Under the pieces are notes generated by a model. That model saw only the letters and a program-made list of their open reading frames with translations, did not search any database and was not told the DNA's origin. Below, in pieces: positions 5,669 through 59,716 of a DNA stretch of 64,000 nt; position 1 is the first letter of the stretch; every line of letters begins with the position of its first letter. The stretch is from Jeotgalibacillus aurantiacus (GTDB lineage: Bacteria > Bacillota > Bacilli > Bacillales > Jeotgalibacillaceae), in the NCBI RefSeq assembly GCF_020595125.1, contig NZ_JACNMS010000004.1, positions 248,001-312,000 on the forward strand. Direction: 5' to 3'. The translations under genes and the position numbers were made by a program.

Positions 5669-5783
5669 GGGACGGGGACATCCGAAGACTCCTGCGGCAG
5701 AGAAGCGACAGGTGAGACAGCGTAGCGCGAAGCGCTAGCTGGCTCACCGCGCGGCCGCGGAAAGCGAAGGATGTCCCCGTCCC
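5669..5783 (+). repeat. Family-1 palindromic element, copy A
   Basis: Outer arms GGGACGGGGACATCC (5669-5683) and GGATGTCCCCGTCCC (5769-5783) are exact inverse complements. Inside lie GACTCCTGCGGCAGAGAAGC and the inner stem GGTGAGACAGC / GCTGGCTCACC, capped by tip hairpin TAGCGC-GAA-GCGCTA (5723-5737). The core recurs at 11007, 29957, 36263 and 51743, and as a half copy at 59661, with different arms each time. It sits in the gap downstream of safA. Confidence 0.9.
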
Positions 5784-5789
5784 GGCTTT

Positions 5790-5820
5790 GGAAAAGCGGA
5801 GGCGACTCGTCCAGCCCCGG
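5790..5820 (-). repeat. Partial family-2 element (3' end only)
   Basis: GAAAAGCGGAGGCGACTCGT and the following CCAGCCCCGG are the reverse complement of the right end of the family-2 elements at 6208-6454 and 51767-51893. Only about 30 bases remain, immediately after family-1 copy A. Confidence 0.75.
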
Positions 5821-5880
5821 TTTTATGAATAAAAAACAAAATCAGCCGCAAACTAAGTAACAAAAAAGCAGGTGAACACA

Positions 5881-6168
5881 TTGAAGTATTTCATCCTATC
5901 AGCAGCCCTACTCACTATGTTCAGCATTCCTCAACACGCATCCGCTCACACCATCACCATTGATTTCGAAACGATTTTCCTTGACGGCGAAAAAGGAACT
6001 GAAACACGTCAGGAAAGCTTTGAAGCCATGGAGGATTTCTGGTCCCTTTACGAAGGGTGGCAGCTGGTGGATATGTCAGAGGAAAAAGTTGTTCTCAGAA
6101 AAAGCAGGGAAGAGCTTTCCCCGCTCAGCGCAATGAACGGATATACACCCATCATCACAAAAGAATAA
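5881..6168 (+). CDS. bofC: BofC-like protein, N-terminal domain only
   Basis: BofC is a forespore protein that controls the SpoIVB protease in the checkpoint for sigma-K activation. The 95-residue product has a signal peptide (MKYFILSAALLTMFSIPQHASA, cleavage after ASA) and a domain matching the BofC N-terminal domain: FLDGEKGTETRQESF, the key run EDFWSLYEGWQLVD, then SPLSAMNGY. B. subtilis BofC is about 170 residues and has a second domain that is entirely missing here; the frame stops at 6166 and family-2 repeats begin 40 bases later. TTG 5881 is favoured because AGGTGA is 5 bases upstream; GTG 5872 lies within it. Position just before ruvA matches Bacillus. Confidence 0.8.
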   Translation: MKYFILSAALLTMFSIPQHASAHTITIDFETIFLDGEKGTETRQESFEAMEDFWSLYEGWQLVDMSEEKVVLRKSREELSPLSAMNGYTPIITKE

Positions 6169-6180
6169 TATTTAAATCGA

Positions 6181-6209
6181 AAAGCGGTCCTCCGGGCTGC
6201 TTTTTTTTG
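6181..6209 (+). terminator. Terminator after bofC
   Basis: AAAGCGGTCC pairs with GGGCTGCTTT (two wobbles) around a 3-base loop, followed by eight T. Confidence 0.8.
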
Positions 6210-6330
6210 TCTAGCTCCGGCGACTAGCCCCTCGAGGTCATAAGCCAAAAATGAACGAGGGTAAAGAGCAACCCTCTTTTCATTTTCGTCTTATGCTTGT
6301 CGGGGCTGGGCGAGTCGCCTGCGCTTTTCT
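6208..6330 (+). repeat. Family-2 palindromic element, tandem copy 1
   Basis: Runs from TGTCTAGCTCCGGCGACTAG to GAGTCGCCTGCGCTTTTC. The outer stem GGCGACT + AGCCCC pairs with GGGGCT + AGTCGCC around a five-base bulge, with an inner GAGGG / CCCTC hairpin. It is followed directly by a second copy, with a period of about 124 bases. Confidence 0.9.
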
Positions 6331-6454
6331 GTGTCCAGCTCCGGCGGCTAGCCCCTCGAGGTCATAAGTCAAAGCTGAACGAGGGCGAAGGTCAGCCCTC
6401 TTTTCATCTTCGCCTTTTGCTTGTCGGGGCTGAACGAGCCGCCTGAGCTTTTCT
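6331..6454 (+). repeat. Family-2 palindromic element, tandem copy 2
   Basis: Same layout as copy 1. The outer stem reads GGCGGCT / AGCCGCC, a paired change from GGCGACT / AGTCGCC in copy 1, so pairing is kept. The remaining bases to ruvA hold no further gene. Confidence 0.9.
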
Positions 6455-6594
6455 TTGACGATTTCAACGGTTCGTGCGCTTCGTTCTGAAATCTGTTAAA
6501 ATAGAACGGATGTTTCTATTTATCTGAAATAGTCAGATTTTAAAGCGCTAAAAATGTGGTACAATGGAGAATGGACTGAAAGGAAGATACCTTG

Positions 6595-7206
6595 ATGTAT
6601 GAATATATAAAAGGCGAAATCGCTTATATTGCAACTGAATATGTTGTGTCAGATCATCATGGACTTGGTTATAAAATCTATATGCCAAATCCATTTATTA
6701 TGGCGTCAAAAAAAGGACAGACTGTACAAATTTTTACATACCAGCATGTTCGCGAGGACCAGCTGACGTTATTCGGCTTCCCGACAATGGAAGAGAAGCT
6801 GCTTTTTACAAAACTCTTAAGTGTTTCGGGCATTGGACCGAAGGGGGCACTTGCCGTTTTGGCTTCGGGTGCACCTGAACAGGTGATTGAAGCGATTGAA
6901 AACGAAAATGAAACACTGCTTGTTAAATTCCCTGGCGTCGGCAAGAAAACGGCACGTCAGATGATTTTAGATCTGAAAGGGAAACTTCAGGATGTCGTTC
7001 CTGATTACTTTCCTAACCTGTTTACAGAACCGGCTGAGGAGAAGAATGAAGCTGAGACTGCACTGGAAGAAGCGATGCTCGCGCTCGAGGCACTCGGGTA
7101 TTCTGAGAGGGAAACAAAGAAAATAAAACCTGTCTTGCTAAAAGAAGTCATGACAACCGATCAGTATATTAAAAAAGGGCTGCAGCTCATGTTAAAACTG
7201 AAGTAA
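6595..7206 (+). CDS. ruvA: Holliday junction helicase subunit RuvA
   Basis: RuvA binds Holliday junctions and loads RuvB for branch migration. The roughly 203-residue protein has an N-terminal OB-fold, the helix-hairpin-helix region with [15 protein letters not shown] and [19 protein letters not shown] (about 70-130), a linker and a C-terminal domain III with [13 protein letters not shown] that contacts RuvB. ATG 6595 is 8 bases after AGGAAG; the preceding TTG at 6592 is possible. It begins the ruvA-ruvB-DUF2905-queA-tgt-yajC run. Confidence 0.97.
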
Positions 7207-7219
7207 AGGAGGGGACAGC

Positions 7220-8218
7220 ATGGAAGAGCGCATCATGACCGGTGAAGCAAACCTGGAAGACCAGTCGCTTGAGCAATCAATCAGGCCACAGCTGCTGAGC
7301 ACGTATATCGGTCAGGACCAGGTGAAAAAGAACCTTGAAATCTATATCGAAGCAGCTAAAAACAGGCAGGAGACTCTTGACCATGTCCTTCTTTACGGAC
7401 CACCGGGGCTTGGGAAAACAACGCTTGCTGCGGTTATTGCAAATGAAATGAATGTAAATCTCAGGACGACTGCAGGACCGGCGATTGAACGTCCGGGTGA
7501 TCTTGCCGCCATTTTATCAGCGCTTGAACCGGGGGACGTTTTGTTTATTGATGAGATTCACCGTCTGCCGCGTGCGATTGAAGAGGTATTGTATCCGGCT
7601 ATGGAGGATTTCTGTCTGGATATCGTGATTGGTACCGGTCCGAGTGCACGTTCAGTCAGGCTGGATTTACCACCTTTTACGCTCGTTGGCGCTACGACAA
7701 GAGCAGGCGCCATATCTGCGCCGCTCAGAGATCGCTTTGGTGTCCTCAGCCGCCTGGAATATTATAATGAAGAGCAGTTGATTGACATCGTATGCCGTAC
7801 GGCTGATATTTTTAATACGGAGATTGATGAACAGGGCGCTGCTGAAATTGCCCGTCGCTCAAGAGGAACACCGCGTATCGCGAACCGTCTGTTGCGACGT
7901 GTACGGGATTATGCGCAGGTACGGGGGAACGGGGACATTACACTTCCGATTGCTCAATCATCCCTCGAACTTCTGCAGGTGGACCGGATGGGGCTTGATC
8001 ATATTGACCATAAGCTGTTGACGGGCATTATTGAGCGGTTCCGGGGTGGCCCGGTAGGACTTGATACGATTGCTGCGAGCATTGGTGAGGAATCCACAAC
8101 GATTGAAGATGTGTATGAACCTTACCTGCTGCAAATCGGTTTTCTCCAGCGCACACCGAGAGGGCGTATTGTAACGCCACTTGTTTATCAGCATTTTAAT
8201 ATGGAGGTACCAGAGTGA
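7220..8218 (+). CDS. ruvB: Holliday junction helicase motor RuvB
   Basis: AAA+ ATPase that drives branch migration with RuvA. The 332-residue product has Walker [10 protein letters not shown] (about 57-65), Walker [12 protein letters not shown], sensor 1 VGATTRAG, the arginine finger region APLRDRFG and the C-terminal winged helix ([36 protein letters not shown]). ATG 7220 follows AAAGGAGGGG, 13 bases after ruvA; its end overlaps the next gene. Confidence 0.98.
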
Positions 8219-8418
8219 GTCTTCCAAAAATGATGATGATTGCCGGTGCGGCTTTACTCATTGCAGGATTTTTACTGCAATTTATAAAAGCGGGCCGTCT
8301 GCCTGGAGATATTGTGATTAAACGGGAAAATTTCACGGTTTATTTTCCGATCGTGACATCGATTCTGCTCAGTCTTATTTTGACGGGGATCTTTTTTCTG
8401 ATCGGAAGGTTTCGATAA
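8215..8418 (+). CDS. DUF2905 family small membrane protein
   Basis: A 67-residue protein with two predicted membrane helices (about 5-23 and 44-64) around a short loop with [21 protein letters not shown], the signature of DUF2905. The function is unknown. GTG 8215 overlaps the ruvB stop (GTGA) and follows GGAGG at 8203-8207, so translation is probably coupled to ruvB. A homologue lies between ruvB and queA in other Bacillales. Confidence 0.85.
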
Positions 8419-8436
8419 TAAGGAGCTGTAAGAGAC

Positions 8437-10618
<2,182 letters not shown>

Positions 10619-10652
10619 TAGATAACTGCACGAAGGGAGGAGTTAAATCAGT

Positions 10653-10925
10653 ATGGATATGTTATTGACGTTGGCACCGCTTATTCTGATGTTCGGTTTG
10701 ATGTACCTTTTCTTAATCCGTCCACAGCAGAAGCGCCAGAAGAAAGTAATGGAAATGCAGAACAGCTTAAGCAAAGGTGATAAGATTGTCACGATTGGCG
10801 GTCTTCACGGAATCATTGATGCGCTTGACGAAGGTCAGGTTGTCATTAAGTGTGGAGACGGAAGCCGTTTAACTTATGATCGCAATGCGATTCGTGAGGT
10901 TGTAGAGAAAAATTCTGCTATGTAA
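10653..10925 (+). CDS. yajC: Preprotein translocase subunit YajC
   Basis: Small accessory subunit of the Sec translocase. The 90-residue product has one N-terminal membrane helix (about 4-22, LTLAPLILMFGLMYLFLI) followed by RPQQKRQKK and a cytoplasmic part with GDKIVTIGGLHGIIDA, all typical of the family. ATG 10653 follows GGGAGGAG. It ends the ruvA-to-yajC run and is followed by a terminator. Confidence 0.95.
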   Translation: MDMLLTLAPLILMFGLMYLFLIRPQQKRQKKVMEMQNSLSKGDKIVTIGGLHGIIDALDEGQVVIKCGDGSRLTYDRNAIREVVEKNSAM

Positions 10926-10947
10926 ATAGGGGATCGACTGCTTAAAG

Positions 10948-10982
10948 AAAAAAAGCTGCCTGAGGGCGGCTTTTTTTCTTTT
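10948..10982 (+). terminator. Terminator after yajC
   Basis: AAAAAAAGCTGCC / GGCGGCTTTTTTT with loop TGAG (one wobble), then more T. Confidence 0.92.
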
Positions 10983-11006
10983 TATTTATTTTTAATACAT
11001 GAAACC

Positions 11007-11117
11007 GGGGCTGGGGCACCCTCCGCTTTCCGTGGCCGCGCGGTGAGCCAGTTGTGCTGCGCACATCTGTCTCACCTGTCGCTTTCCGCCACAGGAGTCT
11101 TCGGGTGCCCCAGCCCC
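11007..11117 (-). repeat. Family-1 palindromic element, copy B
   Basis: Arms GGGGCTGGGGCACCC (11007-11021) and GGGTGCCCCAGCCCC (11103-11117) are exact inverse complements. The core is in reverse orientation to copy A, and the tip stem is TGTGC-TGC-GCACA (11053-11065). It lies between convergent yajC and the TIGR04086 gene. Confidence 0.9.
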
Positions 11118-11241
11118 TCTGAATATGAAAAGTCCCCCTGTCTTAAAATATAATGTTTGTTAATAAACAGGGGGCTGTGCGACTTTTCAGTGTATGGTAT
11201 AGAATAACTGCAAGCTATGATGGGTCTGAAGTGACTGATCT

Positions 11242-11613
11242 TCAGGATTTGTTGAACAGGTTGACGCCGGCGACTCCTCCGGTGCAGGAGAGGAGGAGGA
11301 GGCCGGTGTAGTGAAAGAGGTGGGACCATTCGAACTGGATCGGCCAGACTGTCCATATGGATAAGGCGATGAGTAATAGTCCGGTGATGGCACCAATTAC
11401 CCAGCCGTGACTTTTTGAGAAGGCGCCGCCTGCCATGCTGCCGATGACGGCAAAAACAAAGACGGATCCGTTGAGCCATTTTGATGCGGTTGTTTCGGTC
11501 ATAGATGTGAAGTGGAGTAGGGTGGCAAAGAGACAGGATGACAGGAGTGCAAGGATTAGGATGGTGATGATGGCACCGCTTGTACCTTTGAAGACATTGA
11601 TCCAGGAAGACAT
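11242..11613 (-). CDS. TIGR04086 family membrane protein
   Basis: A 123-residue protein with four predicted membrane helices (about 13-34, 46-63, 70-88 and 99-117), matching in length and place the TIGR04086/YrzE family found after yajC in Bacillales. The GGxxGxxxxxK-like stretches (GSMAGGAFSKSHG and CTGGVAGVNLF) fit this family. The function is unknown. Its ATG at 11613 follows a minus-strand AGAAGGGA. Confidence 0.75.
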   Translation of the reverse strand: MSSWINVFKGTSGAIITILILALLSSCLFATLLHFTSMTETTASKWLNGSVFVFAVIGSMAGGAFSKSHGWVIGAITGLLLIALSIWTVWPIQFEWSHLFHYTGLLLLSCTGGVAGVNLFNKS

Positions 11614-11677
11614 GGGATCCCTTCTTTCTGAGTAGTTTTTTAAATATCGGGAACGCTATCGTTGAAGGATGGTGACC

Positions 11678-12319
11678 GTGATGATTGAGTTTTACAGTCT
11701 TGTTGCACTAAGGGCCGTATTATTATATATATTGATTTTTATTATTTTCAGACTCATGGGCAAAAGAGAGGTCGGGGAACTGAGCCTGCTGGATCTCGTT
11801 GTTTTTATGATGATTGCTGAGGTAGCTGTATTTGCGATTGAAGATCCTTATATGAGTATGTTTCAGGCAGCCTTCCCCATGATTCTGTTAATGATCCTGC
11901 AGATTATTCTTTCCTGGGTTTCTTTGAAGTCAAAGCGAATACGTGAGCTTTTTGATGGGAGACCTTCTATTTTAATCAAAGATGGTGAACTTGTTAAAAG
12001 CGAAATGAGAAAAAACAGATACAACATTGATGATTTGATGCAGCAGCTGCGTGAAAAAGAAGTATTTAACCTTCATGAAGTGTCCTATGCTATTTTAGAG
12101 CCATCGGGCAGTTTGACGGTTTTGAGAAAGGGACGTGAAGAAGGCAGCCTTTCTCTTCCGTTAGTAATGGATGGAAGGGTTCAGCAAAGACATCTGGATC
12201 TGATCGGAAAGGATGAAACTTGGTTGAAAAATGAACTAGGTAAAATGGGTTACACATCCTGTAAAGATATTTTCTTTTGCTCTTTTGAGGATGGAAGATG
12301 GTACATCAGCTCTTCCTGA
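11678..12319 (+). CDS. DUF421 (YetF-type) membrane protein
   Basis: About 213 residues, with three N-terminal membrane helices (roughly 5-25, 36-52 and 60-80) containing FRLMGKREVGELSLLDLVVFMMIAEVAV, the DUF421 signature. A soluble domain follows, with the run FDGRPSILIKDGELV...YNIDDLMQQLREK. Related proteins in spore formers are thought to affect spore germination or the membrane, but no function is settled. The start is uncertain: GTG 11678 has AAGGA at 8 bases, while ATG 11669 and ATG 11681 are alternatives. Its last 14 bases overlap the convergent spoVB. Confidence 0.85.
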   Translation: MMIEFYSLVALRAVLLYILIFIIFRLMGKREVGELSLLDLVVFMMIAEVAVFAIEDPYMSMFQAAFPMILLMILQIILSWVSLKSKRIRELFDGRPSILIKDGELVKSEMRKNRYNIDDLMQQLREKEVFNLHEVSYAILEPSGSLTVLRKGREEGSLSLPLVMDGRVQQRHLDLIGKDETWLKNELGKMGYTSCKDIFFCSFEDGRWYISSS

Positions 12320-13811: not shown

Positions 13812-13911
13812 AGTGTCCTCCATCTTCTCAAACGACTTGATTTCAGCTACAATGAATCATATGCACAAAGAGAGATTGGTTAGTACAACAAGATAGACAG
13901 GAGGAGAATGT

Positions 13912-14241
13912 GTGAATAAGGAAATGTCATTTGAAGAAGCATTCAGAGTGGCCGGTCCGGCTCTTGTCAGTAAAGCGCAGGAATTACAGCTTTACGGATA
14001 TGATTCGGCAACCCCTGAGCTTCTTTGGAAATACATGCAAACAAAGAAGTGGAAGAGGGAACAGGGCGAAATTCGTATTCACCGTGCTGTAAATGAAATA
14101 TTATCTATTAAAGCCGGTGATTTTATGAATTATATGGCGAATCAGGAGTACCGCTCATTTTCAGTAGGAAATGGTCTCAATGATGACGAAGTCGAACTGC
14201 TGCTTTATGGAGAACAAAACGGAAACTTGAACAAGTCCTGA
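13912..14241 (+). CDS. comN: Post-transcriptional regulator ComN
   Basis: A 109-residue protein resembling ComN (YrzD), which in B. subtilis raises comE operon expression by acting on its mRNA. Shared features are LYGYDSATPELLWKYMQTKKW followed by IHRAVNEILSIKAGDFMNYM. GTG 13912 follows GGAGGAGAATGT. It lies between divergent spoVB and secDF as in Bacillus, and the comE genes it would act on are present at 59.8-63.3 kb. Confidence 0.8.
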   Translation: MNKEMSFEEAFRVAGPALVSKAQELQLYGYDSATPELLWKYMQTKKWKREQGEIRIHRAVNEILSIKAGDFMNYMANQEYRSFSVGNGLNDDEVELLLYGEQNGNLNKS

Positions 14242-25275: not shown

Positions 25276-25552
25276 CATCATTATAAACGCACAAACAGCT
25301 GTTGATGGAGAACAGTAGGTAAGATCCCGCATGAAAAGAGAGAGTCTGACGCGGCTGAGATCAGACTCACATGACGCCTTATTGAATGAACACTCCGTAG
25401 GCTTTTTTCTGAACAGTGGCTCATCACTCATTAGGAAGAAACGTAGGCAGGCGTTAACTGCTTAAAGTGGAAGCTTATGCTTCAATTAGGGTGGCACCAC
25501 GGGAAATCAAATCCCGTCCCTTGTTTTCGGACAAGGGACGGGATTTTTTTGT
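25276..25552 (+). promoter_or_regulatory. T-box leader controlling hisS-aspS
   Basis: The conserved T-box sequence AGGGTGGCACCACGGG starts at 25488. A strong terminator hairpin follows (AAATCCCGTCCCTTGT / ACAAGGGACGGGATTT, 25509-25546) with a T run. The likely specifier codon is CAC (His) in GAACACTCC at 25391-25393, matching the histidyl-tRNA synthetase gene downstream. The leader senses uncharged tRNA-His and permits read-through. The start is estimated from the promoter. Confidence 0.9.
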
Positions 25553-28681: not shown

Positions 28682-28880
28682 CAAGGTAAGTCCTGAAGTG
28701 CACGTTACCCAAATCTTCAGTTTTGACCGAACACTTCATTATCCGGGAGCTCACGTTTTTCTGCGGCGTGCATCCCTTTGCGGGGAAACACCAATCAGAA
28801 AACAGGGCACCCACTTGCTGAGACCGGGTTCAAAACGTAAGATCCTTACATCTTGACGGCACAATTGGGATTTACCGAAC
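28682..28880 (+). ncRNA. ssrS: 6S RNA (6S-1/BsrA type)
   Basis: 6S RNA binds sigma-A RNA polymerase as a promoter mimic. In Bacillus, 6S-1 RNA lies between aspS and yrvM (tcdA), the position seen here. A gap of about 400 bases without an ORF has a promoter, a terminal helix GGTAAGTCC (28685-28693) with GGATTTACC (28868-28876; one wobble), a 5' start AAGTCCTGAAGTG and the GACCGAACAC segment recalling the family, and a strong terminator. A length of about 195 fits. The call rests on synteny, promoter and stem; covariance was not tested. Confidence 0.8.
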
Positions 28881-29956: not shown

Positions 29957-30071
29957 GTGCCGGGTCATTCCGTAGACTCCTGCGGCAGAGAAGCGACAGG
30001 TGAGACAGCGTGATGCGAAGCATTAGCTGGCTCACCGCGCGGCCGCGGAAAGCGAAGGAATGACCCGGCAC
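29957..30071 (+). repeat. Family-1 palindromic element, copy C
   Basis: Arms GTGCCGGGTCATTCC (29957-29971) and GGAATGACCCGGCAC (30057-30071) are exact inverse complements. The core is in the same orientation as copy A, with tip hairpin TGATGC-GAA-GCATTA (30011-30025). The rest of the gap after tcdA shows no gene. Confidence 0.92.
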
Positions 30072-36262: not shown

Positions 36263-36372
36263 GGGCCTGGGGCATCCTTCGCTCGCGCGCCGCGCGGTGA
36301 GCCAGCTGTGCTTCGCACATCTGGCTCACCTGTCGCTTCTCTGCCGCAGGAGTCTACGGATGCCCCAGGCCC
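36263..36372 (-). repeat. Family-1 palindromic element, copy D
   Basis: Arms GGGCCTGGGGCATCC (36263-36277) and GGATGCCCCAGGCCC (36358-36372) are exact inverse complements. Reverse orientation, with tip stem TGTGC-TTC-GCACA (36307-36319). The rest of this gap (to 36594) holds only a possible -10 (TATACT near 36553) for the next gene. Confidence 0.92.
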
Positions 36373-51687: not shown

Positions 51688-51726
51688 AACAAATCCCCGT
51701 TCATTAGTGAACGGGGATTTGTTTTA
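51686..51726 (+). terminator. Terminator after yrrS-like gene
   Basis: AACAAATCCCCGTTCA / TGAACGGGGATTTGTT, perfect stem with a TTAG loop, beginning in the stop codon. Confidence 0.9.
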
Positions 51727-51742
51727 TGGACATATAATAACC

Positions 51743-51981
51743 GTGCCGGGCATTTCTTCGCTTTCCTTTGTCTAGCTGCGGCGACTAGCCCCTCGAGGTC
51801 ATAAGTCAAAGCTGAACGAGGGCAAAAGACAGCCCTCTTTTCATCTTCGCCTTATGTTTGTCGGGGCTGGACGAGTCACCTCCGCTTTTCTAAGGCCGCG
51901 CGATGAGCCAGCTAGTGCTCCGCACTACGCTGTCTCACCTGTCGCTTCTATGCCGCAGGAGTCTACGGAATGGCCCGGCAC
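51743..51981 (-). repeat. Family-1 element copy E, interrupted
   Basis: Left arm GTGCCGGGCATTTC and right arm GGAATGGCCCGGCAC (51967-51981) pair with small gaps. The tip hairpin is TAGTGC-TCC-GCACTA (51913-51927). The core is cut between CTTTCC and GGCCGCGCG by a full family-2 element (51767-51893). Confidence 0.92.
51767..51893 (+). repeat. Family-2 element nested in family-1 copy E
   Basis: Runs from TTTGTCTAGCTGCGGCGACT to GAGTCACCTCCGCTTTTCTAA. It is the same element as the tandem pair at 6208-6454, with the inner CGAGGGC / GCCCTC hairpin. Flanks CTTTCCT and CTTTTCT are similar and may mark the insertion site. Confidence 0.9.
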
Positions 51982-52075
51982 TTTTTGAAAAGTATGCTGC
52001 CAATTGAATGAATAATCCGTCCATCTAAAACCAAAAAAAGCAATTCATACAACTGAATATTGAAATTGTTTAGTG

Positions 52076-52279
52076 TTATTCGGCCTTGAAATGAACGCAG
52101 GCTGTATAGAGTAATCGTCCATCACCCATTTTGGTTACTTCATGTTCAACGGAATGAACCCGGAGCAGAATCGCCTGGTTGTTTTCAACCTGCTGCTGAA
52201 TGGCGCGTTCCAGCTCCTTAAGACTCGAAGCCTCAAAAAACTCTATTTTATCTTTAATCATGTCCAGTTGAAAACTCAT
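52076..52279 (-). CDS. DUF2536 family protein (YrzA-like)
   Basis: A 67-residue soluble protein starting MSFQLDMIKDKIEFFEASSLKELERAIQQQVENNQAILLRV, which matches the DUF2536 family known near mtnN in Bacillales. The function is unknown. ATG 52279 follows GGGGAG on the minus strand; the longer frame to 52321 is not supported by a site. Transcribed away from mtnN. Confidence 0.82.
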   Translation of the reverse strand: MSFQLDMIKDKIEFFEASSLKELERAIQQQVENNQAILLRVHSVEHEVTKMGDGRLLYTACVHFKAE

Positions 52280-52414
52280 GATAATCTCCCCTGACAACGT
52301 ATAGTGCTTGAGAAAAAGCATGGAATTAGTATAACATGAGGTGATTGAACTTTACGACTGGCTATGGTAAGTTCAAAGAAGTTTTGAATCATTTGCTCAG
52401 AAAGCAGGGATAGT

Positions 52415-53110
52415 ATGAAAATCGGAATTATTGGTGCGATGGAAGAGGAAGTTGAACTTCTGAGATCAAATATTGAACAGGCAAAAACCGAAACCATTGC
52501 GAACAGTGAATTTACATCCGGATGGATCGATGGTAAAGAAGTTGTACTTGTAAAAAGCGGGATTGGAAAAGTTAATGCGGCAATGACAACCACGATTCTG
52601 CAGGAACGATATCAGCCTGACTACATATTAAATACAGGGTCTGCCGGCGGTTTTGATCCAACTCTTGAGGTTGGTGATGTTGTGATTTCCACCGAAGTGA
52701 GACACCATGATGTTGATGTAACCGCCTTTAATTATGAGTACGGACAGGTTCCGGGTATGCCTGTTGCTTTTAAGGCTGAAGATCAACTCAGACAGGCTGC
52801 ACGTGAGAGCGCTGAAGAAATCGGGACTGTTAATACGGTTGACGGGCTTATCGCGACAGGAGATTCATTTATGAATGACCCTGCAAGAGTAAAAGCACTT
52901 GAAGATAAATTTGAAGGTCTCCAGGCACTTGAAATGGAGGCAGCGGCGATTGCCCAGGTCGCACATCAGTACGGAACACCTTTTGTCATTATCCGTTCCC
53001 TGTCTGATATTGCTGGGAAAGAGTCAGATCTGTCTTTTGAACAGTATTTGAAAAAAGCAGCTGTCAATTCAGCCAATCTGATTCTAGGAATCGTTAAAAG
53101 AATAAAGTGA
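52415..53110 (+). CDS. mtnN: 5'-methylthioadenosine/S-adenosylhomocysteine nucleosidase
   Basis: Hydrolyses MTA and SAH to free adenine in methionine salvage and the methyl cycle. It is 231 residues: [11 protein letters not shown] at the start, [23 protein letters not shown] and the catalytic region [13 protein letters not shown]...[11 protein letters not shown] 52415 follows AAAGCAGGGA. In B. subtilis it lies in an operon with yrrT and mccAB; here it stands alone, with sigK converging 2 bases after its stop. Confidence 0.97.
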
Positions 53111-53112
53111 TC

Positions 53113-53811
53113 TTAATGAAGCTCTTCCTGTGAGAATGCATGGAAGAGCTTCATTAATGCTCTTTTTTCGATCCGGGAAACATAGCTTCTGGAGATCCCG
53201 AGCTCTTTGGCGATTTCGCGCTGGGTCTTTTCATCCTGTCCACTGAGCCCGAAGCGTGCACTGATCACTTCAATTTCCCTGTCTTCAAGTGTTTGTAATA
53301 GTCCGCGGACCTTCTCTTCATTCATTTTCTGTTCGAGCTGATCATCAAGTGCCTCATCTTCACCCCGCAAAATGTCTATCAGACTGATCGCATTACCATC
53401 TTTATCTTCTCCGATCGGGTCATTTAATGAAACATCCTTTTTCGTCTTTTTCAATGAGCGCAAAAACATAAGAAGTTCATTTTCAATACATCTTGCAGCA
53501 TAGGTGGCCAGTTTGGTTCCTTTTTCGAAAGAGTAACTTTCAATTGCTTTAATGAGTCCGATTGTACCGATCGAGATCAGATCTTCAGGAGACTCCCCTG
53601 TATTTTCAAACTTTTTCACAATATGTGCCACAAGTCTTAGGTTGTGTTCAATCAAAAGCTTTCGTGCCTCCTGATCACCTTCTAACACTTTTTCAATGGC
53701 CTCTTTTTCTTCCTCTTTACCAAGCGGCTTGGGGAAAGCATTCTGTTTGAAGTATCCGGTCAGTGCAGGCAAATCGCATACAGTAGCAAGCATCATCAAA
53801 AAAATAGACAA
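53113..53811 (-). CDS. sigK: Late mother-cell sigma factor, pro-sigma-K
   Basis: Sigma factor for late mother-cell genes in sporulation. It is 232 residues, continuous, with no skin element or other interruption. The first 19 or so residues ([19 protein letters not shown]) are a hydrophobic pro-sequence; [11 protein letters not shown] aligns with the mature N terminus of B. subtilis sigma-K. Region 2 has [18 protein letters not shown] and [16 protein letters not shown]...[15 protein letters not shown]; region 4 has [27 protein letters not shown]. The TTG start at 53811 follows AAAGGAGGG. Confidence 0.95.
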
Positions 53812-53877
53812 GCTATCCCTCCTTTTTCCATTCGCCCTACTGCTACGATATGAAAAAAAGCTGGAAACTTGCCCGTC

Positions 53878-54018
53878 CTACTCATTCAATTTATATTCTC
53901 TCAGTGACCTGGTCATTTTGCCGGTACCCTTACACGTCTGACATTTTCTGCTGAGAAATCCAGCTCTTCTGATTAAACCCTTACCCCGACATTCAGAACA
54001 AATGTTAACAACCTTCAT
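53878..54018 (-). CDS. Small protein with two CxxCxGxG zinc motifs
   Basis: A 46-residue protein with CSECRGKG (7-14) and CQTCKGTG (25-32), the repeat used by the DnaJ cysteine-rich domain to bind zinc, between basic segments. ATG 54018 has an excellent site (AGGAGGATCC); the longer frame to 54087 has none. I do not recognise a named family. It is encoded just upstream of sigK on the same strand, 66 bases away, with no terminator seen between, so it may be transcribed with sigK. Function unknown. Confidence 0.75.
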   Translation of the reverse strand: MKVVNICSECRGKGLIRRAGFLSRKCQTCKGTGKMTRSLREYKLNE

Positions 54019-54152
54019 AAGGATCCTCCTGTCCGAATATTCAGAATTCTTTATTCTATCGTATAGGATCCCGTGAAAAATTGCCACTACTTCATTCTGA
54101 AAGTGCAGGTATGGATAAAGTAAGGTAGTATAATAATGATAGTTTTTTAGAT

Positions 54153-54272
54153 TCAGCTTGCCTGTCGCTTACTGATTTCACGCTCAATCATCTGGATGAA
54201 GTCAGAAGCGAGGTTCAGTCGAATTGCTTCTTCAAGTGCTTTGATCAGAAGGGGAAGTGGAAGGTTGTTCAT
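54153..54272 (-). CDS. sda: Sporulation checkpoint inhibitor Sda
   Basis: Sda blocks KinA-type histidine kinases and so holds back sporulation when replication is disturbed. The product is 39 residues, NNLPLPLLIKALEEAIRLNL followed by ASDFIQMIEREISKRQAS; the pattern matches B. subtilis Sda (two-helix hairpin, LLxxx...A..LNL..DFI..IE.EI..R), which is 46 residues. ATG 54272 follows GAGAGGAG. The place beside yqeG and the DnaA boxes upstream agree with sda in Bacillus. Confidence 0.87.
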   Translation of the reverse strand: MNNLPLPLLIKALEEAIRLNLASDFIQMIEREISKRQAS

Positions 54273-54306
54273 AAAAATATCTCCTCTCAGTTTTTTCGCT
54301 AAAATG

Positions 54307-54335
54307 ATAGTAGCAAAATTTTTTTGAAAGAACAA
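54307..54335 (-). promoter_or_regulatory. Probable sda promoter
   Basis: On the minus strand TTGTTC (54335-54330), 17-base spacer, TACTAT (54312-54307). The nearest DnaA box lies just upstream of the -35. Confidence 0.6.
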
Positions 54336-54343
54336 GCGTTCTG

Positions 54344-54443
54344 TTATCCACAACTCCAAGTGGATAACCTGTGTAAAACGTGTAGATAACTATCCTGATA
54401 TAAAGAGTTTATCAGTAAATGACCGTTGATAAAGTTATCCACA
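54344..54443. promoter_or_regulatory. DnaA-box cluster at sda
   Basis: Two perfect TTATCCACA boxes (54344-54352 and 54435-54443) and two one-mismatch boxes in the inverse orientation (AGTGGATAA at 54359-54367 and TGTAGATAA at 54381-54389) lie within 100 bases, between sda and yqeG. DnaA control of sda is known in B. subtilis. Confidence 0.85.
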
Positions 54444-54506
54444 AAACAAAGATGTGCATTATTTGTCGAACGAATTTTGAGATAATTTTCAAATTGAAGA
54501 ATGCTT

Positions 54507-54535
54507 TTGAACTTACGCATGAGATCATGTATGAT
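54507..54535 (+). promoter_or_regulatory. Sigma-A type promoter of the yqeG operon
   Basis: TTGAAC (54507-54512), 17-base spacer, TATGAT (54530-54535), 26 bases before yqeG. Confidence 0.75.
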
Positions 54536-54561
54536 AAAGACTTGAAGTGAAGAGGTGAACG

Positions 54562-55086
54562 ATGATGATAAAACTATTTTTACCGAATGAATACGTAGAC
54601 AGCGTATTTGAAATAACACCGGAAAAACTGAAAAAACAGGGAATTAAAGCAATTATTACTGATCTTGATAATACGCTTGTTGAATGGGATCGTAAGAACG
54701 CTACTCCAAAACTGATTGAGTGGCTTGAAAATATGCAAAAGCATGATATTCTCGTGACCATTGTGTCTAATAATAATCAATTGAGAGTGGCAGCGTTCTC
54801 AGATCCGATTGGTGTACCGTTTATTTATCATGCCAGAAAACCGATGGGACGCGCCTTCAGACGTGCGCTGCGTGATATGAATGTAAAGAAATCAGAAACG
54901 GTTGTCATTGGTGATCAGCTTCTGACAGATGTTCTCGGCGGGAATCTGAATAAGCTGTATACGATTCTTGTTGTACCGGTTGCCAAAACAGACGGATTCT
55001 TTACAAGAATTAACCGTCTGATTGAAAGACGCCTTTTGAACTTTTTTAAGCGTAAAAAAATGATACAGTGGGAGGATAAAAAGTGA
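54562..55086 (+). CDS. yqeG: HAD-family phosphatase YqeG
   Basis: YqeG, HAD superfamily class IIIA phosphatase. It is 174 residues with the nucleophile motif TDLDNTLVEWD (about 32-42), VSNNN (motif II) and GDQLLTDVLGGN (motif III). The physiological substrate is unsettled. ATG 54562 follows AGAGGTGAAC; ATG 54565 is an equal option. It overlaps yqeH by 4 bases and opens a run of tightly packed genes to 59570. Confidence 0.93.
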   Translation: MMIKLFLPNEYVDSVFEITPEKLKKQGIKAIITDLDNTLVEWDRKNATPKLIEWLENMQKHDILVTIVSNNNQLRVAAFSDPIGVPFIYHARKPMGRAFRRALRDMNVKKSETVVIGDQLLTDVLGGNLNKLYTILVVPVAKTDGFFTRINRLIERRLLNFFKRKKMIQWEDKK

Positions 55087-56189
55087 GCGATTTACACGTG
55101 ACGTGTATTGGGTGTGGTGTTGAGATCCAGACAGAGGATAAAGAGGCGATTGGCTATGCACCACCATCCAGTTTGAAAAGGGAGCAGATCATCTGTCAGC
55201 GCTGCTTCAAATTAAAGCACTATAATGAAGTGCAGGATGTTTCATTAACAGATGATGATTTCCTTAAGATTCTGAATGGACTCGGTGAAGTGGACGCGCT
55301 GATTGTTAAAGTTGTAGATATTGTAGACTTTAACGGCAGTTTCCTGAAAGGCCTGCACCGTTTTGTTGGAAAGAACCCTGTATTATTAATTGGAAACAAA
55401 TCCGATATTCTTCCTAAGTCACTAAAGCCGAATAAGCTGATTAACTGGATGAAGTACGAAGCGAAGCAGCTCGGGCTGAAGCCGGTGGACGTGCTCTTAT
55501 GCAGTGCCGATAAGGGACACCGTATTCAGGAAGTGTTGGAAGCGATTGATCGCGAGCGGAAAGGCCGTGACGTATATATTGTCGGCTGTACCAATGTAGG
55601 GAAATCCACGCTGATTAACCGGATCATCAAAGAGGTGACGGGGGAAAATGATGTGATTACGACCTCTCAATTCCCTGGAACGACACTTGATATGATTGAA
55701 ATTCCTCTTGACGATGGTCAGGCAATTATTGATACACCGGGAATTATCAACCGCGACCAGATGGCGCATGTAATTAACAAGCAGGACTTGAAAATTGTCA
55801 TGCCAAGAAAAGAATTAAAACCTAAAGTGTTTCAGTTAAAAGAAGAGCAGACACTTTTTGTTGCAGGTCTGGCAAGATTTGATTTTATCAGTGGAGAGAA
55901 AAATTCATTTACATGCTATTTTTCAAATGAACTGGATATCCACCGCACGAAGCTTGAAAATGCGGACAATCTTTACGAAAAGCATGTGGGAGACATGTTA
56001 TCCCCTCCGCGCAGTGAGGATCTTGCAGCATTTCCGAAGCTGAAAAGACACGAGTTTATGATTAAGGAAGCGAAAACAGATATCGTGTTCTCAGGTCTTG
56101 GCTGGATAACAGTTAATGAAGCAGGAGCAAAGGTAGCTGCTTATGTCCCGGAAGGTGTAAGTGCGATCGTGCGTAAGTCATTAATCTGA
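55083..56189 (+). CDS. yqeH: Ribosome biogenesis GTPase YqeH
   Basis: Circularly permuted GTPase needed for 30S subunit assembly. It is 368 residues: an N-terminal zinc finger (CIGCGVEIQ at 9-12 and CQRCFKLKHY), then permuted G motifs, with NKSD (G4) ahead of P-loop VGCTNVGKSTLIN (about 161) and DTPGII (G3), and a C-terminal domain. GTG 55083 overlaps yqeG, with GGAGG in view. Confidence 0.95.
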   Translation: MSDLHVTCIGCGVEIQTEDKEAIGYAPPSSLKREQIICQRCFKLKHYNEVQDVSLTDDDFLKILNGLGEVDALIVKVVDIVDFNGSFLKGLHRFVGKNPVLLIGNKSDILPKSLKPNKLINWMKYEAKQLGLKPVDVLLCSADKGHRIQEVLEAIDRERKGRDVYIVGCTNVGKSTLINRIIKEVTGENDVITTSQFPGTTLDMIEIPLDDGQAIIDTPGIINRDQMAHVINKQDLKIVMPRKELKPKVFQLKEEQTLFVAGLARFDFISGEKNSFTCYFSNELDIHRTKLENADNLYEKHVGDMLSPPRSEDLAAFPKLKRHEFMIKEAKTDIVFSGLGWITVNEAGAKVAAYVPEGVSAIVRKSLI

Positions 56190-56205
56190 CAGGAGTTGAA
56201 TGATC

Positions 56206-57039
56206 ATGAAGCTGGCCGTTATCGGACATCCTATTAAACAGTCAAAATCACCCTTTATGCATAAGATCTGGCTTGAAGAGCTCGGCATTTCCGGGAGCTA
56301 TGAAGCGAAGGACATTCTGCCGGAATCACTTGCCGGGGAGGTTGAAGCGCTTTTGAAGGGTGGATATGACGGCTGGAACGTGACCATTCCGCATAAAGAA
56401 GCCATCATACCGTTACTGGATGAGGTTGATGAACAAGCATCTGCGCTTGGTGCCGTTAACACTGTTATTGTAAAGGATGGCAGACTGATTGGTAAAAACA
56501 CTGATGGGACAGGCTTCATGAAATCTCTTTTATTAAAGAGAACTGCTGAAGACATTGCCCGTTCCAGGGTGTTAATGATCGGCGCAGGCGGTGCTGCCAA
56601 AGGGATTGCAGGAGCGCTTGTCCCTTATCAGCCCAAATCTTTCTCAATTGCAAACAGAACACCCTCAAAAGGTGAACGGCTTCTAAACAGTCTGGTCATC
56701 AATGGTGAAAAGTACGCTTTAACAATAGATGAAGCGGAAGTGCAATTAGATAAATTTGATATTGTAATCAATACAACGTCGGTCGGTATGGTCCCGGATA
56801 CAGATCAAACCCCGATCGATATGACAAGAGTCAGAAGAAAAAGTCTGGCGGCAGATATTATTTATAACCCACTTCAAACAGCGTTTTTAAAACAGGCATC
56901 AGAAGCTGGTGCTGATACGCTGAACGGAGTGGGAATGTTTGTGTATCAAGGCGCAACCGCTTTTGAAGAGTGGACGGGGAAAAAACCGGATGCTGAAAAA
57001 ATGATAAAAAGGATTTCAGAAACAATAGGAGGATCATAA
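56206..57039 (+). CDS. aroE: Shikimate dehydrogenase
   Basis: NADPH-dependent reduction of 3-dehydroshikimate in the shikimate pathway. It is 277 residues: IGHPIKQSKSPFMHKIWLEE (substrate site SKSP), NVTIPHKE (catalytic Lys in PHKE), NTDGTGF, Rossmann GAGGAAKGIAGAL and NRTPSKGERLL. ATG 56206 is 8 bases after AGGAGTTG; the ATG at 56200 is too close to that site. Its stop overlaps the next start (TAATG). Confidence 0.96.
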   Translation: MKLAVIGHPIKQSKSPFMHKIWLEELGISGSYEAKDILPESLAGEVEALLKGGYDGWNVTIPHKEAIIPLLDEVDEQASALGAVNTVIVKDGRLIGKNTDGTGFMKSLLLKRTAEDIARSRVLMIGAGGAAKGIAGALVPYQPKSFSIANRTPSKGERLLNSLVINGEKYALTIDEAEVQLDKFDIVINTTSVGMVPDTDQTPIDMTRVRRKSLAADIIYNPLQTAFLKQASEAGADTLNGVGMFVYQGATAFEEWTGKKPDAEKMIKRISETIGGS

Positions 57040-57338
57040 TGCTTACAGGTAAACAAAAAAGATTTTTACGTGGTGAAGCACATCACCTATCACCTATTTT
57101 CCAAATTGGGAAAGGTGGCGTGAACGATAATATGGTAAAACAGATTGGTGAAGCATTAGAAGCAAGAGAACTTATTAAAATCAGTGTGCTCCAGAACTGT
57201 GAACAGGATAAGGATGAGGCTGCAGCTGTTATTGTGAAGGGAGCACGCGCCGAACTCGTTCAAATTATCGGAAATACGATTGTTGTGTATAAAGAGTCAA
57301 GAGAAAATAAGAAGATTGAGCTTCCGAAAAAAGGCTGA
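57039..57338 (+). CDS. yqeI: Ribosome-associated RNA-binding protein YqeI (YhbY)
   Basis: CRS1/YhbY-type RNA-binding protein associated with 50S assembly. It is 99 residues, with LTGKQKRFLRGEAHHLSPIFQIGKGGVNDNMVKQIGEALEARELIKI, containing the family GKGG loop, and GNTIVVYKESRENKKIELP. Coupled to aroE and nadD by one- to four-base overlaps. Confidence 0.95.
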   Translation: MLTGKQKRFLRGEAHHLSPIFQIGKGGVNDNMVKQIGEALEARELIKISVLQNCEQDKDEAAAVIVKGARAELVQIIGNTIVVYKESRENKKIELPKKG

Positions 57339-57913
57339 TGCAAAAAAAGAGGATTGGCCTGCTAGGGGGCTCATTTGATCCTGTTCATATTGGCCATTTG
57401 ATCATGGCGAATGAAGCTTATCAATCTCTTGGACTCGATGAAGTGAGATTTATGCCAAACGGTGCGCCACCACATAAGTCATTGTCCGGACAGGCAACAA
57501 TTATGCAAAGGGTCGAAATGGTGGAACTCGCAATTGCGAATATCCCGTATTTTAAAATGGAATATGCAGAGGTCCATCGTAAGAATAAAGCGTACACGTA
57601 TGATACAATAATGGAAATAAAAGAAAACGAACCTGGTCATGAATGGTTTTTTATCATTGGTGGAGATATGATGGATACATTAGCATCTTGGTACAGAATA
57701 AACGATTTAAAAAAACACGTTCAGTTTATCGGGTTTCATCGTCCGGGCATCACTCCTGCTGATGATACTGATGTCAGGGTCATAGAAGGACCCTCCATTC
57801 ATTTATCATCAACCTTTATACGTGACCGGATTAAATCCGGTCAAAACTGCAAATTTCTTCTTCCGTCTTCTGTAGAGGCGTATATCAGTAAGGAGGGGTT
57901 GTATGAATCGTGA
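57338..57913 (+). CDS. nadD: Nicotinate-nucleotide adenylyltransferase
   Basis: Makes nicotinate adenine dinucleotide from nicotinate mononucleotide and ATP, a late step in NAD synthesis. It is 191 residues: LLGGSFDPVHIGHL (nucleotidyltransferase HxGH), FMPNGAPPHK, FIIGGDMMDTLASW and SSTFIRDRIKSG. ATG 57338 overlaps yqeI (TGATG). It is the only NAD synthesis enzyme in the window. Confidence 0.96.
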   Translation: MQKKRIGLLGGSFDPVHIGHLIMANEAYQSLGLDEVRFMPNGAPPHKSLSGQATIMQRVEMVELAIANIPYFKMEYAEVHRKNKAYTYDTIMEIKENEPGHEWFFIIGGDMMDTLASWYRINDLKKHVQFIGFHRPGITPADDTDVRVIEGPSIHLSSTFIRDRIKSGQNCKFLLPSSVEAYISKEGLYES

Positions 57914-58487
57914 GGAAGCACTTTCTTATGTCCGTGAAATACTTCCTGCTAAGAGGTATATTCACACGCTGGGCGTAGTTGAAACGGCAAAAGCGCTGGC
58001 GGAATCAATCGGGGAGGATGCTGAAAAGGCAGAACTTGCTGCTGCGCTGCATGATATGGCGAAATATCAGAGCAGGGATGAATTGAAAAGGATCATTGTC
58101 GATCAGAAACTGGACATGCGCCTGCTTGATTTTCATCATGAGCTATGGCACGGTCCGGTAGCGGCACACCTGGCAAAAACGGAACTAGGCATTGAATCAG
58201 AAGAAGTGCTGCTTGCGATCCGTTACCATACGACCGGCAGAGCAAATATGACGAAGCTTGAACAAATCGTTTATTTGGCAGATTATATAGAACCCGGGAG
58301 AAAGTTTCCCGGCGTTGAAAAAGTAAGAGAGATAGCTTATACAGATTTTGATAAAGCGATGCGAAAAGCGGTAAAACAATCTATATTATTCCTGATTGAG
58401 AAAAAACAGCGTGTCTTTCCTGATTCGCTTGATTGTTATAACGACTTAATGCTGCAAAAGGAGAAGTTAAAATATGAAAGAAACTGA
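57903..58487 (+). CDS. yqeK: HD-domain Ap4A hydrolase YqeK
   Basis: Symmetrical diadenosine tetraphosphate hydrolase of the YqeK class. It is 194 residues, with a metal-binding HD domain: HTLGVVETAKALAE, AALHDMAKY (HD), HHELWHGPVAAHLA and AIRYHTTG, then a DYIEPGRKFPGVEKVRE segment. ATG 57903 overlaps nadD by 11 bases, with AAGGAGGGG upstream. Confidence 0.94.
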   Translation: MNREEALSYVREILPAKRYIHTLGVVETAKALAESIGEDAEKAELAAALHDMAKYQSRDELKRIIVDQKLDMRLLDFHHELWHGPVAAHLAKTELGIESEEVLLAIRYHTTGRANMTKLEQIVYLADYIEPGRKFPGVEKVREIAYTDFDKAMRKAVKQSILFLIEKKQRVFPDSLDCYNDLMLQKEKLKYERN

Positions 58488-58827
58488 ACTGTTAGCCCTT
58501 GCCTACAACGCGGTTGATGACAAGCGGGCAGAAGATATTATTACATTAAACATGCAGGGGATTTCCCTGATTGCAGATTACTTTATGATCTGTCACGGTA
58601 ACTCAGACAAGCAGGTACAGGCGATTGCGCGTGAAGTAAAGGATCGTGCAGAAGAAGCCGGTTTTTCAGTGAAGCGCATGGAAGGCTATGACGAAGCGCG
58701 CTGGGTGCTTGTGGATCTTGGCTACGTTGTTGTACACGTGTTCCATCGTGATGAGCGCGATTACTACAAGCTCGAGAAACTTTGGGGAGATGCTCCGATT
58801 GAAGATATGACGAGCAGCCTGAACTGA
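58474..58827 (+). CDS. rsfS: Ribosomal silencing factor RsfS
   Basis: Binds ribosomal protein uL14 and blocks joining of subunits when nutrients are short. It is 117 residues, with DKRAEDIITLNMQGISLIADYFMICHGNSDKQVQAIAREV, GYDEARWVLVDLGYVVVHVFHRDERDYYKLEKLWGDA, all family hallmarks. ATG 58474 overlaps yqeK by 14 bases with AAAGGAGAAG upstream. Confidence 0.97.
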   Translation: MKETELLALAYNAVDDKRAEDIITLNMQGISLIADYFMICHGNSDKQVQAIAREVKDRAEEAGFSVKRMEGYDEARWVLVDLGYVVVHVFHRDERDYYKLEKLWGDAPIEDMTSSLN

Positions 58828-59570
58828 TGTCTTATGAATCATTTGCCCTTGTCTATGACCAGCTGATGGCGGATGTACCTTACGATTCCTGGATGGCTTT
58901 CTTAGTTGAAGCAACAGGGGATCAGGGCCATTCTGCGAAAAGACTTCTTGATGTTGGTTGTGGAACAGGTGAGTGGACGTTAAAGGCTTCAGAATATGGC
59001 TATGACGTAACCGGCATCGATCTATCTTCATCCATGCTCACCATTGCGCGTGAAAAAGCGGAAGAAGCAGGGCTGAAGGTTGATTTTTTCGAAATGAATA
59101 TGACAGACGTGCAGGGTTTTGAACCTTTTGACCGCATTACGATCTTTTGCGATTCACTCAATTATCTTGAGACAGAAGAAGAGGTTCAAAAAACTTTTGC
59201 CAATATGGCTGTTCTGTTAAAGAGCGGAGGTTATTTACTGTTCGATGTCCATTCGATTTATAAAATGAACCACTTGTTCATCGGTCAGTCCTATCATGAT
59301 GACACAGGTGAAGCAGCTTACATCTGGGATTCTTTTGAAGGGGAATATGAAAACAGCGTGGAGCATGAACTGAGCTTTTTCATTGAGGAAGAATCAGGTC
59401 TGTACAGACGATATGATGAGCTTCACAAACAGCGTACATTTACTGCTGAGCAGTATCAACAATGGCTTGAAGAAGCCGGTTTTCAGGTGAAATCCATTTC
59501 AGCCGACTTCACGATGGATGCACCGGAAGAAACAAGCGAACGCATCTTCTTTGTATGTACCAAACCATAA
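58827..59570 (+). CDS. Class I SAM-dependent methyltransferase (YqeM-like)
   Basis: A 247-residue methyltransferase with SAM motif I LLDVGCGTGEWTL (about 38-50), a GIDLSSSMLTIAREKA segment and FDRITIFCDSLNYL. The substrate is unknown. It starts at ATG 58827 overlapping rsfS (TGATG) and closes the yqeG operon; in B. subtilis this place holds yqeM. No membrane segments. Confidence 0.9.
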   Translation: MSYESFALVYDQLMADVPYDSWMAFLVEATGDQGHSAKRLLDVGCGTGEWTLKASEYGYDVTGIDLSSSMLTIAREKAEEAGLKVDFFEMNMTDVQGFEPFDRITIFCDSLNYLETEEEVQKTFANMAVLLKSGGYLLFDVHSIYKMNHLFIGQSYHDDTGEAAYIWDSFEGEYENSVEHELSFFIEEESGLYRRYDELHKQRTFTAEQYQQWLEEAGFQVKSISADFTMDAPEETSERIFFVCTKP

Positions 59571-59579
59571 CAACAATAC

Positions 59580-59612
59580 GAACAGCGCCTTTTTGAGGAG
59601 CTGTTCTTTTTT
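59580..59612 (+). terminator. Terminator after the yqeG operon
   Basis: GAACAGC / GCTGTTC with CC / GG inner pair, then six T. Confidence 0.88.
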
Positions 59613-59660
59613 ATTGTAAGAATGTCAGGCGTGTATGAAATGGACTTTTTATCGATCAGA

Positions 59661-59716
59661 GGACCTGCCACACCCGGAGACTCCTGCGGCAGTGAAGCGA
59701 CAGGTGAGGCAGGTCC
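59661..59716 (+). repeat. Family-1 half element, copy F
   Basis: Arms GGACCTGCC (59661-59669) and GGCAGGTCC (59708-59716) enclose only the first half of the family-1 core (GACTCCTGCGGCAGTGAAGC plus GACAGGTGA). The second half and tip hairpin are missing, yet the arms still pair exactly. In B. subtilis comER lies in this area; it is absent. Confidence 0.8.

Follow-up and report, generated by a model that had tools for sequence, protein, structure and literature searches.

The locus examined here raises the question of how the outer arms of a dispersed palindrome can differ from copy to copy and still pair within each copy. It is a 64,000-nucleotide stretch of Jeotgalibacillus aurantiacus DNA (contig NZ_JACNMS010000004.1, positions 248,001 to 312,000; this whole stretch is called the window), in which an original prediction, made from the letters alone, had named six places as copies of one palindrome family (family 1). 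All six are present in the window sequence. We propose that they are copies of a noncoding dispersed hairpin element of Bacillales, with a fold that would be kept on one defined strand; as a full explanation this is the reading that we prefer, tentatively and at somewhat less than an even chance. A less variable core with conserved internal loops and a GNA-capped tip is closed by an outer stem that is nearly free in sequence but pairs, and the sequences suggest that both arms of this stem can change together at one site.

The arms form the outer stem, P1; the second stem is P2, and the stem below the tip is P3. The element strand is the strand bearing GACTCC. The copies in the window are as follows.

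5669..5783, + strand: intact single-module element; P1 arms 5669-5683/5769-5783, 15/15 Watson-Crick
11007..11117, - strand: intact single-module element; arms GGGGCTGGGGCACCC, 15/15
29957..30071, + strand: intact single-module element; arms GTGCCGGGTCATTCC, 15/15
36263..36372, - strand: intact single-module element; arms GGGCCTGGGGCATCC, 15/15; tip TGTGC(GAA)GCACA
51743..51981, - strand: composite element; outer arms 51743-51757/51967-51981 pair 12/15
59661..59716, + strand: internally deleted copy; arms GGACCTGCC/GGCAGGTCC (59661-59669/59708-59716) still pair

Where five full copies and one half copy had been counted, four copies are intact, one is composite, and one (the supposed half copy at 59661) is by our reading internally deleted, with shortened arms that still pair. 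Watson-Crick pairing of the outer arms is complete (15/15) at 5669, 11007, 29957, and 36263 and reaches 12/15 at 51743. The tip-stem pairs had been quoted correctly, with one G.T included in TGATGC/GCATTA; P2, which had been called constant, also changes in pairs (e.g., CCTaCGGC/GCCGtGG).

Anatomy and covariation of the element

On the element strand, the 5' half reads A, P1 arm (15 to 16 nt), GNA, GACT, P2 (CCTGCGGC), AGAGAA, GCG, and ACA; P3 and the tip follow as GGTGAG, A, CAGC, tip stem, GNA, tip stem, GCTG, G, and CTCACC; and the 3' half reads G, CGC, G, GCCGCGG, AAAGCGAA, P1 arm, and GGTTT. In the element at 5669, P2 is CTGCGGC/GCCGCGG and the tip is TAGCGC(GAA)GCGCTA, and the 127-nt stretch holding this element folds at -76.7 kcal/mol, compared with -47.7 +/- 3.8 in shuffles. 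Single-module elements measure ~110 to 115 bp, and composites measure 240 to 265 bp or more; the arms of the composite at 51743 enclose a family-1 domain and a second module of ~125 to 135 bp (repeat D1, 51756-51891). Other core subtypes are also present (e.g., loci L021 and L022).

Elements were called in 1.10 Mb of J. aurantiacus (genome G000) and 0.92 Mb of a sister species (G004) with a finder based on the first 18 core bases, with up to 4 changes allowed. The 137 and 93 calls, respectively, were reduced to 121 and 83 after chance matches, nested calls, and double-strand calls had been dropped. Among the 121 J. aurantiacus elements, P1 is 15 to 16 bp long in 119, the base 5' of P1 is A in 119, and the 3' neighbor of P1 is GGTTT in 46 and mostly near GGTTT in the others. 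The arm sequence is nearly free between copies, with 103 distinct 5' arms among 128 elements. Same-length J. aurantiacus copies (all such groups of the wider set, with lengths of 111, 112, 113, and 115) are 51 to 62% alike in the arms and 76 to 92% alike in the core.

Arm pairing was scored at 49 core-pattern places, comprising the window and 39 loci chosen by BLAST, with no choice by pairing and with wobble pairs counted half. The score was at least 12/15 in 44 places and exactly 15/15 in 29; in a looser scan, made up mostly of chance places, arm scores peaked near 10. The copy at locus L019 (G000 C5:126841-126955) has arms that look like different types and pair poorly, as if the halves of two elements had recombined. 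Other species, such as G007, carry a two-part P1, CAGC-(8 bp, variable)-gga-(9 bp)...(9 bp)-gga-(8 bp)-GCGG, in which the variable blocks are again matched; the inner block of this type pairs 9/9 in 19 of 37 parsed places, places below 6/9 having been dropped.

Of the 49 places, 34 single-module copies went into a covariance model (R1); these were selected by arm score and length and are also the copies closest to 5669, so that their pairing and core likeness are partly chosen. Standard pairs occupy 98.9% of the 1,386 paired cells, a level that falls to 32 to 49% when partners are slid by 1 to 3 columns. Double changes occur at 22 of 41 pairs (165 cells; none of 500 shuffles was as high), including 12 of the 15 P1 pairs, one of which is GC in 13 copies, CG in 10, UA in 7, and AU in 4, with zero mismatches. 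P2 contains a conserved T.G pair, seen in 32 of these 34 copies and in 27 of 41 elsewhere. In other species, 42 matches in thirty loci (41 distinct rows), fitted to the model in an alignment that leans toward structure, have double changes at 33 of 41 pairs, in 350 cells versus 107 in shuffles. In both sets, the 34 own copies and the 41 other-species matches, covariation lies above that of shuffled and slid controls.

The tip is capped by a three-base loop in 94 of 98 single-module elements of J. aurantiacus, and 91 of 96 tallied tip loops are C(GNA)G, with all four bases represented at N (CGAAG, 51; CGGAG, 17; CGTAG, 16; CGCAG, 7). Among 182 cores of other species, 104 have a three-base central loop (100 closed by C-G, 75 of these GNA), and 44 have a four-base loop. 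Exceptional stability is described for DNA mini-hairpins in which a GNA or GNNA loop (any N) is closed by a G-C pair, with a melting temperature of 78 C for GCGAAGC (PMC4686876). The d(GCGNAGC) mini-hairpins of that report share the C(GNA)G cap and its free N and serve there as a synthetic stabilizing piece. The literature searched, at listing level, gave no report of a bacterial repeat family with C(GNA)G as its conserved cap. These tips favor a folded single-stranded DNA without proving it. The element strand is the more stable strand in 97 of 98 elements by DNA energies and in 75 of 98 by RNA energies, the DNA model having no GNA term. DNA energies are not taken as proof of single-stranded DNA, the strand difference having been traced to the P3 region.

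Sister-species sites and strand asymmetry

The sister species is the nearest relative among the genomes searched and is collinear with J. aurantiacus, with 87 to 97% identity in long blocks. Both flanks were mapped for 77 of the 121 J. aurantiacus elements. The sister species carries an element with like arms at 33 of these sites and an element with different arms at 18; a gap of <40 bp without an element is present at 11, and a larger gap without an element is present at 15. The 33 like-armed sites contain 6 paired double changes and 18 one-sided changes, whereas 0.16 doubles would be expected if the two sides were independent. The clearest double change (G000 C4:180006) is T-A in one species and G-C in the other, with arms that are otherwise alike. 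The 6 double changes fall in 4 elements, two of which hold two each, and 5 are transversion pairs without a stepwise G.T path; 2 lie where flanks align well. Template switching can make changes on both sides in one event, as described for rRNA genes, and an excess of paired double changes is what such copying allows (PMC8794818). Here the paired double changes are in a dispersed repeat, with a few in-place examples between the sister species.

Because 33 mapped sites are like-armed in the sister species, with 6 paired changes among them, the arms are not fresh inverted duplications, an alternative that the original prediction had named as a refutation. The conclusion drawn there from the paired changes, a fold maintained by selection or by copying, is supported by both the covariation and the sister-species sites, which decide only in part between DNA and RNA and between selection and copying. 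Between the species, divergence is 3.0% in the arms and 5.7% in the flanks (p = 0.0006), both rates being trimmed, since like arms were defined by no more than 8/30 differences and flanks by >75% identity.

Interiors differ by >6 nt at 10 of the 33 like-armed sites. Exchange of interiors through shared core blocks would account for both the differing interiors inside kept arms and the likeness of the cores, and we infer that this exchange is ectopic gene conversion. A swap of hairpin tops at mid-stem is not proposed, as the outer bases of different arms at the same site were only slightly closer than random pairs (p = 0.07). Losses leave scars, with only arm parts retained by the sister species at two sites. 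In the window, the counterpart of 5669 matches it throughout the arms and differs in the tip by a C-G/T-A double change. At 11007, arms and flanks are unchanged in the sister species, where the element is 261 bp long and has a different interior, made up of another module and a different core subtype. The element at 36263 is common to both species, the counterpart of 51743 has arms that pair 15/15, and the site of 59661 holds a remnant that is shorter still. At 29957, the sister species has no element, and the flank differs too.

Mismatches in P1 were counted in 166 distinct arm pairs of at least 13/15, the 3' arm being chosen by Watson-Crick matches only. G.T exceeded A.C by 31 to 8 (p = 3e-4), and by 37 to 14 at 12/15 (p = 0.002). 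The ratio was 21:4 in J. aurantiacus, 18:5 on the + strand, and 13:3 on the - strand. In the element set before removal of chance matches, it was 32:8 after look-alikes were collapsed; split by gene context, that set gave 13:2 in sense elements, 8:0 in antisense ones, 11:5 where the neighbors are convergent, and 2:2 where they are divergent. Since the excess appears on both strands and in antisense elements, neither fork direction nor read-through transcription is a ready explanation. Read-through mRNA as the judge of pairing is disfavored, since the excess extends beyond sense elements, though in small numbers.

Distribution, setting, and relation to known repeats

The 3.5-Mb draft genome of J. 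aurantiacus contains at least 150 matches to the model, the weakest at E = 1.2e-5 (1,230 candidates). A match at E <= 0.001 was present in 30 of 41 genomes of relatives: every one of the 12 in the genus, counting J. aurantiacus, and 18 of the 29 that belong to other families of the order. The suspicion that similar words occur in other Bacillaceae was correct, and the fold itself occurs there too. A scan of named genomes with a 32-base core piece gave at least 116 stretches, with ~22 Bacillales genus names among the 80 listed; genera among the matches listed include Priestia, Metabacillus, Fictibacillus, Halobacillus, and Oceanobacillus. A record labeled Pseudomonas sp. ISL-84 (JAGGRA010000050.1, locus L227) holds the Bacillales core pattern and is probably mislabeled. 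Element matches numbered 128 in G007, 65 in G005, and 34 in G001.

By simple open reading frame calls, no element lies inside a frame of at least 600 bases. Convergent neighbors are somewhat overrepresented (16 of 55 elements versus 34 of 179 long gaps in J. aurantiacus; 16 of 62 versus 36 of 203 in the sister species), and tandem neighbors run in the sense of the element in 44 of 73 cases from both genomes, shared sites being counted in each. In G007, a near-complete genome with a DnaA match at bases 856-1341, the fork direction is shared by 79 of 128 matches (79:49, p = 0.01), which is no strong rule. A 615-kb stretch of that genome that includes the point opposite the origin (C1:1534512-2149826) holds none of the 128 matches.

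Genes for Y1 transposases (PF01797) are present in 34 of the 41 genomes. A RAYT (REP-associated tyrosine transposase; REP, repetitive extragenic palindrome) as the mover is unsupported: three genomes with many elements (G001, G005, and G007) have no PF01797 match, and the 4-kb stretches around three Y1 genes of J. aurantiacus and the sister species contain no R1 match. Arm-matched half pairs in 2.7 Mb lie <500 nt apart in 193 of 194 cases, and the exception (1,947 nt) encloses an oxidoreductase gene. Among possible mobile carriers, matches at E <= 1e-3 occur in 4 of 72,556 plasmid records, each from Priestia or Bacillus, and in none of 50,697 phage records. No Rfam 15 match was found at the elements, at the gathering level in the window or at E <= 1 for 5600-5850; Rfam matches elsewhere in the window are a T-box leader (25293-25524) and 6S RNA (28687-28875).

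The second module of the composite also occurs on its own in the window, as part of a related family that is not family 1.

6195..6454, - strand: free-standing head-to-tail pair of the second module of the 51743 composite
5783..5819, + strand: second-module end fragment (inverted repeat I10), directly 3' of the 5669 element

On the + strand this module reads GTCTAGCT..GCGCTTTTC, in tandem at 6195-6454 and within the composite at 51756-51891. By eye, the tandem copies show a paired change (GGCGACT/AGTCGCC versus GGCGGCT/AGCCGCC). An unrelated palindrome at 4151-4210 has 26-nt arms that are 96% complementary and 8 nt apart.

Dispersed hairpin repeats are already known, and the unusually free but paired arms would be the new trait. 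Within the GTAG and CGTC families of REP and of bacterial interspersed mosaic elements (BIME), subfamilies have alternative complementary stem bases, and G.T pairs are taken there as a hint of RNA function (PMC3733652). The element resembles these repeats in being high-copy, intergenic, and palindromic and in having complementary stem variants and G.T pairs within one family. A REP, by that account, is 20 to 40 bp long, bears a tag at its end, and is often accompanied by a RAYT gene (PMC3733652), whereas the element is ~110 to 115 bp long, or 240 to 265 bp and more when composite. Its outer ends (A on the 5' side, mostly GGTTT-like on the 3' side) bear no GTAG-type tag, GNAG occurring only within P1 with N free; its arms are far more variable than its core, and its presence is not linked to that of Y1 transposases. 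Because the outer tag and the RAYT link were not found, we do not regard the element as a REP. Miniature inverted-repeat transposable elements (MITEs) of the bcr1-like kind are short, noncoding, and dispersed, with inverted ends. The element shares with them terminal inverted repeats (the P1 arms), though these differ per copy and are not a shared terminal sequence; no autonomous partner was found in 2.7 Mb, and no target-site duplication was seen, the 12 sites inspected including no clean empty site. The bcr1 repeat of the Bacillus cereus group is named as MITE-like in a survey that also catalogs intergenic stem-loop families, such as Bhal-1, in Bacillus halodurans (PMC2267715). Bhal-1 is likewise an intergenic hairpin-forming repeat with tens of copies in a related bacterium; covarying free arms are unmentioned in the available part of its description, and the two were compared by description (PMC2267715). 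No description of the element was found in the literature searched, which was covered at listing level with subscription papers and supplements outside; the core word GACTCCTGCGG retrieved papers that were unrelated by title.

Explanations for the paired arms

In the reading that we prefer, what counts would be pairing within the element strand itself, probably in the form of a folded single-stranded DNA, and recognition would be by shape (the GNA cap and the purine internal loops) rather than by P1 sequence. P1 would drift within pairing, its arms being kept by selection that weeds out mismatches and perhaps by template switching, in which one arm serves as the template for the other and part of the mismatches would be repaired. 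Ectopic gene conversion through the core blocks that the copies have in common would exchange their interiors and so keep the cores alike. The element may have spread in the past like a REP or a MITE; the moving enzyme was not found. In a bolder form, which we consider quite improbable, the copies would be chromosome-wide, strand-specific tags of folded DNA in Bacillales. A protein of the host or of relic transposition would read the shape of the cap and loops, the outer stem would be a private sequence for each site, rewritten pairwise by template switching, and the interior modules would be interchangeable.

Several results weigh against the folded-DNA reading. At the 29 sites where both 60-bp flanks aligned at >75%, 17 one-sided changes were found next to only 2 double changes (0.17 expected), one of which adjoins a new mismatch. 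At 18 of the 77 mapped sites the arms differ between the two species, the trimming of both divergence rates limits their comparison, and none of 12 sites inspected was a clean empty site, each having remnants, a changed flank, or another element. The G.T excess was not significant in the sister species alone (12:4, p = 0.08), in G007 (10:7), or in other genera (8:3), and it was lost at a loose arm threshold of 11, which is full of chance matches (87:73). Among named-genome loci, 38 of 109 parsed places pair at least 7/9 in the inner arm when the register is fixed, and the remaining places may reflect other registers or decay. The DNA-energy strand gap arises in the P3 region (an A.G mismatch), not in the cap, as traced in 44 elements of 115 nt, and in composites the element strand is favored under both DNA and RNA energies (22 of 22). 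Finally, G001, G005, and G007 gave no PF01797 match despite their 34, 65, and 128 elements, and no autonomous element with the same ends was found in 2.7 Mb.

The element may instead act as a structured RNA. Transcription of the copies, in most cases as read-through into 3' regions, would then expose the RNA fold to selection, which would keep the arms paired, as proposed for REP-like repeats. The RNA-like covariation, the conserved purine internal loops, and the preference for G.T over A.C in P1 fit this possibility, as do the mild biases toward the sense of neighboring genes (44 of 73) and toward fork direction in G007 (79:49). The G.T excess is, however, at least as strong in antisense (8:0) as in sense (13:2) elements, in small numbers; upstream stretches are mutually unlike by eye except for the final A, no promoter scan having been made; no Rfam match was found; and the tips in J. 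aurantiacus are mostly GNA triloops (94 of 98) rather than tetraloops, although 44 of 182 cores elsewhere have four-base loops. We judge a structured RNA to be possible but on the doubtful side. That template switching alone copies arm onto arm, without function or selection, seems unlikely to us. Its mechanism is known (PMC8794818), 5 of the 6 double changes are transversions that cannot be reached stepwise through G.T, and two of the 4 changed elements hold two double changes each. Such neutral palindromes would not predict the strand asymmetry of 31:8, and they would predict a neutral arm rate, yet arms change less than flanks; moreover, the internal loops and cap recur across many genera.

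The arms might instead be set at insertion, if the core jumped into existing short palindromes and took the arms of its target, and the difference in arms between most sites (103 distinct 5' arms among 128 elements) is what this would produce. Palindromes without a core are rare, however: in 945 kb, a similar context surrounds 5 of the 45 GC-rich palindromes, and we read some of these as remnants; the outer ends stay the same (A in 119 of 121), and some arms change as pairs in place. We hold this origin to be very improbable. Transcription terminators of varied sequence seem equally remote. They would explain a GC-rich stem followed by GGTTT and the somewhat overrepresented convergent gene pairs, but only 24 of 121 elements have at least 6 T in the 8 nt after the stem on the element strand, and 21 of 121 when the opposite strand is read, and the long, less variable core would be superfluous. 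Of 129 gene ends no more than 400 bp away, 29 were found by a crude scan to be followed already by a terminator-like hairpin, ahead of the element; the order suggested by the window, elements after terminators, is by this count not general.

With more than 100 copies in one genome and many sites shared with the sister species, the element offers a test bed for an old question, whether perfectly paired stems change through slow compensating mutation or in a single step, one arm being copied from the other. If the folded-DNA reading is true, a dispersed DNA repeat can show covariation of the sort that is commonly read as proof of a functional RNA, a point that would bear on the discovery of RNAs through comparative genomics.

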